Shown here: positions 7,147 through 32,800 of the stretch, piece after piece
Numbering within the stretch: position 1 is the stretch's first letter
How the letters are laid out: each line of letters opens with the position of its first letter
Assembly (NCBI RefSeq): GCF_024298825.1
Contig: NZ_CP101153.1
Span: forward strand, 744,001-808,000
Source: Haloglomus salinum
Lineage (GTDB): Archaea; Halobacteriota; Halobacteria; Halobacteriales; Haloarculaceae
Direction: 5' to 3'
Length of the DNA stretch: 64,000 nt
Made by a program: the position numbers and the translations under genes
The notes under the pieces: model-generated
What the model was told of the DNA's origin: nothing
The model's database searches: none
The model's input: only the letters and a program-made list of their open reading frames with translations

Positions 7147-7485
7147 GGCACCGGTTGCTGGCCGTTCTCGCGGGTTCTGTACTCTCACGACTACCACCAC
7201 GATTACGGCGGGAGGGACGCCTCCGAAGCCCTCGCGCTCTCTCACAACGACGGCGACAACCGGACCACCTCCGAAGCCCTCGCGCTCTCGACCGGCCGGG
7301 AGTCGCTGCGCTCCTCGGTCACTCACTCCGTTCGCTCCCTGTGGTGCTTGCTTCCTCCGGGCCGGGCCGAGACCGCTCGCCCTTCGAGTCCGCCAGGGAC
7401 CGCAGATAGGCCAGTCAGCCAGCGTCAGCCTCACACCCCCCCAACCGCTTGCAGTGCTCGCTCCCTGCGGTCGCTGCGCGCTTCA
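7147..7485. repeat. Gene-free repeat-rich region after the enolase-family gene
   Basis: No gene is supported. A CCTCCGAAGCCCTCGCGCTCTC motif occurs twice, around 7223-7244 and 7266-7287. Downstream are Arg/Ser-codon-like strings such as TCGCTGCGCTCC and TCGCTGCGCGCTTC, and a GTGCTTGC end. Very similar strings recur in the intergenic element at 36064-36162 and before the repeat at 31634. This looks like a dispersed non-coding element family rather than decayed coding sequence. Confidence 0.55.
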
Positions 7486-7549
7486 GCCCTCGCACGGTGC
7501 CGGCGGCTGGCCACCGGCACAGCCGCCAGCGCGCGCCCACTGGATTGAC
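7486..7549 (+). repeat. 64-bp structured intergenic repeat, copy A
   Basis: This segment matches 31634-31697 at 59 of 64 positions with no gaps. Its core folds as a stem GGCGGCT / AGCCGCC enclosing a smaller GCC-ACC-GGC hairpin. Differences between the copies either fall in loops or keep pairing (stem C to T gives a G-U pair in RNA). It lies between two convergent genes, 3' of both. Function is unknown; a small RNA, a terminator or a mobile non-coding repeat are all possible. Confidence 0.7.
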
Positions 7550-30517: not shown

Positions 30518-31483
30518 ATGAGCGAACGAATCAGCACCCGCGAGTGGGACCCGACCGAGACGGAAGCCGAGGAGAGCGACGAGAAACACGGCTGTCCTGA
30601 GTGTGGCGGCGATATCGCGAACGACACGGAGCACGGGGAGGTCGTCTGCCAGGACTGCGGCCTCGTGGTCGACGAGGACAACATCGACCGCGGCCCCGAG
30701 TGGCGCGCGTTCGACGCCCAGGAGAAAGACGAGAAGAGCCGCGTCGGTGCCCCGACGACCAACATGATGCACGACAAGGGGCTCTCGACCAACATCGACT
30801 GGCGCGACAAGGACGCCTACGGCAACAGCCTGTCCAGCAAGCAGCGCCAGAAGATGCAGCGCCTGCGCAAGTGGAACGAGCGGTTCCGCACCCGCGACTC
30901 CAAGGAGCGCAACCTCAAGCAGGCCCTCGGGGAAATCGACCGGATGGCTAGCGCCTTGGGCCTCCCGGACAACGTCCGCGAGACCGCCTCGGTCATCTAC
31001 CGCCGCGCGCTCGACGAGAACCTGCTCCCCGGCCGCTCCATCGAGGGCGTCTCGACGAGTGCCCTCTACGCCGCGGCGCGACAGGCCGGCGTCCCGCGGA
31101 GCCTCGACGAGGTCGCCAGCGTCTGCCGCGTCGAGAAGGACGAGATCGCCCGGACCTACCGCTACGTCGCACGCGAACTCGGCCTCGAGATCGCCCCCGC
31201 GGACCCGGAGAGCTACGTGCCCCGGTTCGCCTCCGACCTCGAACTGAGCGAGGAGGCCGCCGCTCGCGCCCGCGAACTCCTCTCGAACGCGAAGGAGGCC
31301 GGCATCCACTCCGGGAAGTCACCGGTCGGGCTGGCCGCGGCCGCCGTCTACGCCGCCTCGCTCCTGACCAACGAGAAGGTGACCCAGAGCGAAGTCGGCG
31401 AGGTCGCGGACATCTCCGAGGTCACCATCCGCAACCGGTACCACGAACTGCTCGAAGCCGAGCAGGGACTGGCGATGGCATAA
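30518..31483 (+). CDS. tfb: Transcription initiation factor IIB
   Basis: A 321-residue general transcription factor that bridges TBP and RNA polymerase. The zinc ribbon uses C26, C29, C44 and C47 (CPECGG.. VVCQDCGLV). The B-reader/linker is GPEWRAFDAQEKDEKSRVGAPTT. Two cyclin folds follow; the first has RNLKQALGEIDRMASALGLP and SVIYRRALDENLLPGRSIEGVSTSALYAAARQ, and the second ends with KSPVGLAAAAVYAASLL, VTQSEVGEVADISEVTIRNRYHELL. Haloarchaea carry many TFBs; which paralog this is cannot be told. AT-rich leader and tail regions surround it. Confidence 0.96.
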   Translation: MSERISTREWDPTETEAEESDEKHGCPECGGDIANDTEHGEVVCQDCGLVVDEDNIDRGPEWRAFDAQEKDEKSRVGAPTTNMMHDKGLSTNIDWRDKDAYGNSLSSKQRQKMQRLRKWNERFRTRDSKERNLKQALGEIDRMASALGLPDNVRETASVIYRRALDENLLPGRSIEGVSTSALYAAARQAGVPRSLDEVASVCRVEKDEIARTYRYVARELGLEIAPADPESYVPRFASDLELSEEAAARARELLSNAKEAGIHSGKSPVGLAAAAVYAASLLTNEKVTQSEVGEVADISEVTIRNRYHELLEAEQGLAMA

Positions 31484-31571: not shown

Positions 31572-31594
31572 CCGGTAGCATCCCCGAGCCCCTC

Positions 31595-31609
31595 GTGCTC
31601 TCAGAGCAC
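31595..31609. other. 15-bp palindrome GTGCTCT-C-AGAGCAC
   Basis: A perfect inverted repeat with 7-bp arms, 25 bp before repeat copy B. It could be part of that repeat family or a protein site. No further support. Confidence 0.4.
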
Positions 31610-31633
31610 CACGGCAGCCGAGACAGCTACGAA

Positions 31634-31697
31634 GCCCTCGCACGGCGCCGGCGGTTGGCCTTCGGCACAGCCGCCAGCGCGCGCCCACTGGACTGAC
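31634..31697 (+). repeat. 64-bp structured intergenic repeat, copy B
   Basis: It matches copy A (7486-7549) at 59 of 64 positions, ungapped. The stem here is GGCGGTT / AGCCGCC with an inner GCC-TTC-GGC hairpin; the T makes a G-U pair so the stem is kept. It lies between tfb and the probable CTAG methyltransferase gene, 57 bp before the latter's start. Confidence 0.7.
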
Positions 31698-31753
31698 AGG
31701 AGGGTGCGGCCCGGTTGGGAAAGCGTCTAGTCCCCCGCCACCGACGCCCGCAT

Positions 31754-32800
31754 GTGCAGACCGAGCACGTCGTCCACGTCGCCGACGCGCGCGAGGCCGT
31801 GGCGGACCTCGGTGACGACGCGGTCGACCTCGTCGTCACCTCGCCCCCCTACCCGATGGTGGAGATGTGGGACGAGTCGTTCACTGCGCAGGACCCGCGC
31901 ATCGGGGAGGCGCTCGACGCGAACGACGGCGACCACGCGTTCGAACTGATGCACGACCTGCTCGACGAGGTGTGGACAGAGCTCCCGCGCGTCGTCAGCG
32001 AGGGCGGCATCGTCGTGGTGAACGTCGGACCCGCCACGCGCACCCTCGACCGGTTCCGGCAGTACCCCAACCACGAGGCCATCAGCCGGCGACTGCGGGG
32101 CCACGGCTTCCAGTCGCTCCCGGGCGTACTGTGGCGCAAGCCGACGAACAGCGCCGCGAAGTTCATGGGCAGCGGGATGCGCCCGCCGAACGCCTACGTC
32201 ACGCTCGAACACGAGCACCTCCTCGTGTTCCGGAACGGTGGGCTCCGCCAGCCCGACCCCGGGCAGCGCGACGCGGCGGCCTACTTCTGGGAGGAGCGCA
32301 ACGCGTGGTTCTCGGACCTCTGGGAGTTCACCGGCGAGCGCCAGGCGCTGTCGGGCGAGGCTGCCGAGGCGCGCGACCGCTCGGGCGCGTTCCCGCTGGA
32401 CCTCCCGCTGCGGCTCGTCCGGATGTTCTCCGTCTACGGCGACACCGTCCTCGACCCGTTCTGGGGCACCGGGACGACGAGCCTCGCGGCGCTCGTCGCG
32501 GGCCGCTCCTCGGTGGGCATCGAGCGCGACCCCGACCTCGTCGGTGCGTTCGACGCGCGCGTGGCCGACGCCCCCGACCTGTCGGCGGACCTCGTCCGCG
32601 AGCGACTCGACCGGCACCGCGAGTTCGTCGCCGAGCGCCGCGCCGACGGGAAGACGCTGCAGTACGATGCCGAACACTACGACTTCCCGGTCGTCACGAA
32701 GCAGGAGCGGAACCTCCGGCTGTACGAGACGGCCGAGGTCACCTGCGAGGACACGGCTGGCGGGAACCGGCGCTACGTGGCCCACCACGAGGCCGTGTGA
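31754..32800 (+). CDS. DNA methyltransferase, probable CTAG-specific N4-cytosine type (Zim-like)
   Basis: A 348-residue beta-class DNA methyltransferase. The catalytic motif IV, VVTSPPYPMVEMWDESF, comes at residues 28-44, before the SAM motif I DPFWGTGTTSLAAL near residue 234; this order and the SPPY sequence mark N4-cytosine enzymes. GVLWRKPTNSAAKFMGSGMRPPNAYVTLEHEHLLVF and YFWEERNAWFSDLWEF match my memory of the conserved haloarchaeal CTAG enzyme (HVO_0794 type). The start is taken as GTG at 31754, since upstream sequence in frame is not family-like. No restriction partner is adjacent, so it is likely a solitary methylase. Confidence 0.85.
   Translation: MQTEHVVHVADAREAVADLGDDAVDLVVTSPPYPMVEMWDESFTAQDPRIGEALDANDGDHAFELMHDLLDEVWTELPRVVSEGGIVVVNVGPATRTLDRFRQYPNHEAISRRLRGHGFQSLPGVLWRKPTNSAAKFMGSGMRPPNAYVTLEHEHLLVFRNGGLRQPDPGQRDAAAYFWEERNAWFSDLWEFTGERQALSGEAAEARDRSGAFPLDLPLRLVRMFSVYGDTVLDPFWGTGTTSLAALVAGRSSVGIERDPDLVGAFDARVADAPDLSADLVRERLDRHREFVAERRADGKTLQYDAEHYDFPVVTKQERNLRLYETAEVTCEDTAGGNRRYVAHHEAV

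Follow-up and report, generated by a model that had tools for sequence, protein, structure and literature searches.

The window analysed here is a stretch of 64,000 nucleotides from Haloglomus salinum (C1:744001-808000), whose genome is a single contig of 4,190,378 bases. Two intergenic copies of a 64-bp repeat lie in it, at 7486-7549 and 31634-31697. The initial annotation had described them as a pair sharing 59 of 64 bases, and both were recovered at those coordinates: the copies align without gaps, with mismatches at positions 13, 22, 28, 29 and 60, and the match is far above chance. The window contains two occurrences of the 28-base heart of the repeat, against none in 100 dinucleotide shuffles. 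Both copies pair in the hairpin stem described with the repeat; at position 22, the substitution turns a C-G pair into T.G. Copy 1 is placed between convergent genes. Copy 2 lies between a gene for a TFIIB-type transcription factor and one for an N6/N4 DNA methylase (window 30518-31483 and 31751-32800); in genome G001, the matches to these two flanking genes are about 60 kb apart.

Taken as a unit, the 64 bp did not hold up, being only the 3' part of a larger mosaic palindromic element (Table 1). The similarity of copy 1 to other copies extends upstream (covariance-model match 7429-7537), with 5' arms from about 7195, and this copy is a half element of approximately 7195-7549 that comprises 5' arms and module A, without a 3' arm. 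A recombination joint seems to mark the 5' edge of the 64 bp, where copy 2 has CTACGAAGCCCTCGCACGG.

Table 1. Parts of the two element copies in the window (positions are those of the window).
Feature	Position	Strand	Basis
Outer 5' arm, two tandem copies of about 47 bases each	7195..7289	+	Direct repeat D1, exact motif matches
CGAAGCCCTCGC in the outer 5' arms of copy 1	7224-7235, 7272-7283	+	Exact match; most own-genome copies have the same arm
5'-arm hairpin, arms 7292-7302 and 7355-7365	7292..7365	+	Inverted repeat I4, 91% complementary
Second arm, CTTCGAGTCCGCCAGG	7382..7397	+	Exact family-motif match
Module A core: CCTCCCC-like strand, hp1, CCCTCGCACG, hp2, AGCGCGCGCC	7429..7537	+	Covariance model R1, 62.3 bits, E 7.3e-11
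hp1 stem: X = AGTGC (7453-7457) opposite Y = GCGCT (7478-7482), central T.G	7453..7482	+	Sequence reading
64-bp copy 1: hp2 (7502-7527), framing end GATTGAC (7543-7549)	7486..7549	+	Sequence comparison
CCGAGCCCCTCGTGCTCTCA, a degenerate stretch resembling the arm, upstream of copy 2	31584..31603	+	Comparison with the arm
Outer-arm motif CGAAGCCCTCGC at the joint of truncated copy 2	31630..31641	+	Exact match
64-bp copy 2: hp2 (31650-31675), framing end GACTGAC (31691-31697), without hp1	31634..31697	+	Weak model match, 18.4 bits

Mosaic architecture and spread across Halobacteria

Blastn searches of the own genome returned 44 pieces with an 81-base query (E ≤ 10) and 52 pieces with a 185-base query (E ≤ 1), so a repeat without further copies is ruled out. 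The own-genome copies form a mosaic. Their outermost arm resembles CTACGAAGCCCTCGCGCTCTCG, with a counterpart like CGAGAGCGCGAGGGCTTCGTAG, and the second arm inward resembles CGCTCGCCCTTCGATTCCACCAGG, with a counterpart like CCTGGTGGAATCGAAGGGCGAGCG. Inside the arms lies module A, which in Haloglomus has GTCAGTC and GACTGAC as its frame. A module B or C frequently follows it in inverted order. The module A core spans about 100 bases and consists of CCTCCCCARCCG, hp1, CCCTCGCRCG, hp2 and AGCGCGCGCC. Both outer arm motifs were found within 420 bases in 12 of the 31 tabulated own copies, and three whole elements of 526-679 bases, folded as either strand, gave energies of -327.5 to -431.6 kcal/mol. 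Exact inverted repeats of at least 11 bases enclosed 43 of 82 units, compared with 17 of 82 in the control; the outer palindrome was therefore rejected as a universal feature, and the outer arms look lineage-specific.

Small perfect palindromes, for example CAGAGCAAGCTCTG, CGAAAATC...GATTTTCG and GAGAGC...GCTCTC, are nested in the elements: 23 lie no more than 450 bases from an element centre, and none in the remaining 128,545 bases of those 50 loci. At seven loci they sit in the hairpin loops of the element (L004, L013, L015, L025, L064, L070 and L073). In some loci (L104, L123 and L147), a pair of oppositely oriented module A units lies within a short distance.

In copy 2, the outer arm is joined straight to hp2 at GCCCTCGC, a joint shared by 4 of the 31 tabulated own copies (copy 2 and three others). 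At the orthologous site in the congener G002, a fuller element lies between the same two genes, those for the TFIIB-type factor and the DNA methylase. As GCCCTCGC is present twice in the element design, in the arm and before hp2, we infer that copy 2 arose by deletion between two GCCCTCGC direct repeats.

With a covariance model of module A, an approach that had been suggested for related genomes together with the original observation, matches were detected in 47 of 116 genomes of Halobacteria, spread over 16 of 46 genera, with at most 35 candidates scored per genome. A broader pattern was found in 35 of 194 genomes of the class, representing 22 of 66 genera, and the reversed control pattern in none. 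Scanning a genome collection by pattern gave at least 120 matches, and the 80 loci examined all belong to Halobacteria or their relatives; the genera among the matches listed are Halosimplex, Halorussus, Natrinema, Halococcus, Haladaptatus, Haloarcula, Haloarchaeobius, Natronomonas, Halobium and others. Seven plasmid records, from Halorussus, Halobaculum and Haloarcula, contain the element. A virus origin was rejected, as there was no phage record among the matches and no viral contig matched. In the Halorussus loci (L087-L164), an ACCGC-rich run and a motif with GCTAGC precede module A and replace the Haloglomus arms, so that what accompanies module A on its 5' side varies from lineage to lineage.

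Covariation and the level at which the shape acts

The hp1 stem is formed by two 5-mers, X and Y, that oppose each other with a mismatch at the centre. Among 107 distinct pattern-fetched cores, taken from among the matches listed after identical and some near-identical rows had been dropped by eye (none for pairing), the free hp1 pairs were Watson-Crick in 213 of 214 cells; partner shuffles, which overstate significance because related copies are not independent, gave a mean of 66 and a maximum of 88. Because the patterns prescribe a central T and a C as the last base of each 5-mer, T.T in these sets follows from the patterns themselves. For 50 distinct cores that were retrieved by similarity instead, the two free pairs were Watson-Crick in 47 and 45 cases (92 of 100 in total), compared with shuffle means of 14.7 and 26.1 (total 41) and maxima of 26 and 34. 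Their central mismatch was T.T in 40, T.G in 8, T.A in 1 and G.T in 1; window copy 1 has T.G, and its X/Y type occurs six times among the 50. In the f4/g25 lineage (L041 and L054), hp1 appears as a perfect hairpin that lacks the mismatched X/Y stem, and the flanking conserved strands are kept.

Covariation was also scored in an alignment (A1) of 43 of the 66 units with a recognisable 3' end; by regular expression, 16 more units had none. The score was 0.232 compared with 0.061 after shuffling, was equalled in none of 500 shuffles, and did not exceed 0.033 for slid partners. Further pair types were not raised in this alignment (9 versus 11.2), since the stem has few non-Watson-Crick types. The sequence of hp2 differs in almost every copy and its pairing is near-perfect, with 1031 Watson-Crick, 2 G.T and 4 A.C pairs in 120 units. 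The covariation of hp1 and the near-perfect hp2 hairpins rule out stems that are broken freely among copies, and these comparisons strongly support family-wide selection on the shape of the element. The initial annotation had proposed selection on RNA shape; the shape part of this proposal stands, and for the RNA part polarity, wobble and promoters give no support outside stem 3, which points the other way.

An RNA stem tolerates G.U pairs and does not tolerate A.C. An RNA gene should consequently show an excess on one strand, as seen in ten 16S rRNA gene sequences, for which a Watson-Crick-only helix finder gave 54 G.T versus 9 A.C. Counted in the same manner, whole elements (n = 51) gave 41 G.T versus 36 A.C, or 90 versus 65 with long-range helices included; these counts take in chance helices, flanking sequence having a similar helix density, and their polarity is diluted accordingly. 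For hp1 in the similarity-fetched cores the ratio was 3 to 3. Wobble in hp2 amounted to 2 G.T in 1033 compared with 54 in 1936 for 16S rRNA genes, a difference to which the higher G+C content of hp2 itself contributes. Stem 3 has 42 A.C versus 0 G.T on the strand shown, which the opposite strand would read as 42 G.U. The folding free energy was lower on the opposite strand in 45 of 45 units and z-scores were lower there in 12 of 45; a choice of strand via folding energy was rejected, because energy and z-scores favour different strands. No promoter-like signal or AT peak at a fixed distance was found in 74 left and 65 right flanks, and a promoter belonging to the element was rejected for this reason.

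The rare wobble, the lack of polarity in whole elements and hp1, and the lack of a fixed promoter favour DNA rather than RNA as the level of action, and we consider the DNA-level reading the more likely, by about two to one. The polarity of stem 3 (42 to 0) keeps a rival in consideration, namely a family of structured non-coding RNAs, most likely produced from the strand opposite to that shown, in which stem 3 would have a conserved G.U pair and hp1 purine-purine mismatches. This is unlikely on balance but deserves to be taken seriously, as the consistently lower folding energy of the opposite strand and the covariation of hp1 are in line with it. The available text of a halite metatranscriptome study reports 22 unassigned intergenic RNAs in several Halobacteria (PMC7002113), a possible point in favour of this rival. 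Against an RNA family, polarity is confined to stem 3, the orientation of the flanking genes is unconstrained, and Rfam offered no match beyond chance: the window matches only a tRNA there, and five loci gave nothing of note at E ≤ 5, chance matches aside.

Genomic placement and mobility

By both flanks, 13 of 19 copies in G002 sit at element sites of the own genome. The comparison was made with 32 own loci only, so that the six misses are not all true absences; in the case of L230, an element made of different modules occupies the own site. At another G002 locus (L229), which bears on the strain-specific insertion without target duplication of PATEs, the own site is without an element, and its flanks have diverged too far for a clean empty site to be recognised. 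The bodies at shared sites range from near-identical (L011/L232, 185/200) to largely different, and in G001 the gap that corresponds to the site of window copy 1 is occupied by other modules. Within genomes, 4 of 210 matching pairs reach 88% identity over 100 bases. Shared sites, divergent bodies and few near-identical pairs fit an old family, whose copies largely stay where they are and are rearranged by recombination, better than an active transposon.

A non-autonomous transposable element of the PATE/MITE kind, old and mostly inactive, with a transposase that is absent or unrecognised, would account for a dispersed, transposase-free and hairpin-rich family, and for the G002 copy without a counterpart at the own site. 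Truncation mediated by repeats and nested palindromes are also known from Haloquadratum PATEs, according to the available part of their description (PMC3119063). We nevertheless regard this explanation as improbable, in view of the many places common to two species and the scarcity of near-identical pairs. Furthermore, the element ends showed no consistent match at 24 TnpB loci in 4 genomes, by which IS605/PATE-type ends were rejected, and a Y1 transposase (Y1_Tnp) is absent from 5 of 11 element-rich genomes, these five having 20 to 30 model matches each. A linked partner gene was likewise rejected: no gene recurs beside the element among 518 predicted ORFs at 80 loci, the largest cluster comprising 6 loci with only three members near the element.

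Under a home-made gene-calling rule, 66 of 82 units were classed, 63 as intergenic and 3 as inside predicted ORFs. The flanking orientations of gaps with an element were 22 --, 17 +-, 12 ++ and 12 -+, compared with 102, 67, 78 and 52, respectively, for gaps without one. Transcription terminators or stabilisers of mRNA 3' ends between genes, which the convergent neighbours of copy 1 and the strong hairpins might suggest, are most improbable and were rejected, since these orientations resemble those of other gaps, divergent ones included, and a terminator would need no conserved core.

Comparison with known systems and proposed role

The family shares with MITEs its short, non-coding and dispersed nature and, in Haloglomus, the GTCAGTC/GACTGAC frame around module A, but the 7-base frame was seen in Haloglomus only, not in the other genera examined, and no parent transposon is known. 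Covarying stems with conserved strands between them are a likeness to the structured RNA families of Rfam 15, for none of which the element scored above a curated cut-off, in the window or at five loci. Integron attC sites work through a folded strand whose stem is mismatched and whose terminal hairpin is free in sequence. The element resembles attC sites in these respects, as a likeness of working only, and differs from them in that no recurring linked gene and no cassette array were seen.

Haloquadratum PATEs are haloarchaeal, transposase-free and palindromic, undergo core deletion via direct repeats, and have palindromes that are targeted by small mobile repeats (SMRs), as far as their accessible description goes (PMC3119063). 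The elements described here, of at most 526-679 bases without a transposase gene inside, are similar in their truncation by direct repeats and in the small palindromes nested in them, which recall the PATE-targeting SMRs and may be analogous to them. They differ from PATEs, whose near-terminal palindromes are like those of IS605-type transposons, in that their own ends found no consistent match at the TnpB loci, and in having sites that are mostly common to species.

In overall organisation the family resembles bacterial REP/BIME, with many intergenic copies, a mosaic of palindromes, alternating orientation and GC-rich hairpins. T-T mismatches have been discussed for REP-related DNA (PMC7709200, in the part available). 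REP units measure 20-40 bases and bear a tag such as GTAG, according to the accessible text of PMC3733652, whereas the family here measures about 100 to 700 bases and has a core shared class-wide, with the strands CCTCCCCARCCG, CCCTCGCRCG and AGCGCGCGCC rather than a GTAG-type tag. It also needs no REP-associated Y1 transposase (RAYT), as the rich genomes without Y1 indicate. In the literature covered, with subscription papers mostly and preprints wholly outside its scope, we found the family undescribed, the nearest counterparts being the Haloquadratum PATEs and SMRs as far as their description could be consulted (PMC3119063), and no described function for the element; owing to this scope, the absence of a description is weak evidence. 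Neither this literature nor Rfam yielded an extragenic repeat with an archaeal class-wide core and covariation this strict, in agreement with the initial annotation, which knew of no named element like it. Halobacteria go unmentioned in the available text of a survey that covered perfect inverted repeats across 118,019 genomes (PMC13155455).

The best reading of these results is an old, DNA-level, REP/BIME-like family that requires no resident Y1 transposase and has neither a linked gene nor an Rfam match. We estimate a probability of about 0.5 that it is a class-wide haloarchaeal family of intergenic, non-coding, mosaic nested-palindrome elements that act as DNA and are shuffled by recombination. 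The fold would act mainly when a DNA strand folds, as a cruciform or as a single strand, and the folded strand would be a putative site for protein binding, comparable to bacterial REP/BIME. Copies may swap modules by homologous recombination, and deletions between GCCCTCGC repeats would produce short forms such as window copy 2. By analogy, our best guess for the function is a folded DNA site for a putative protein; perfect hairpins could also arise by template switching, with no function needed, which counts against such a site. More specifically, and tentatively, module A may be the folded recognition site of a putative, widely shared haloarchaeal DNA-processing or chromosome-organising system, which would require a near-exact Watson-Crick stem around a preferred mismatch and accept almost any hairpin beyond it, with sites kept across species and modules exchanged.

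If the fold is a protein site, the family points to a new player in the chromosome biology of haloarchaea. If it is an RNA, these organisms have a structured RNA in dozens of copies per genome. Either reading provides a testable account of much of the GC-rich sequence between genes in these genomes.
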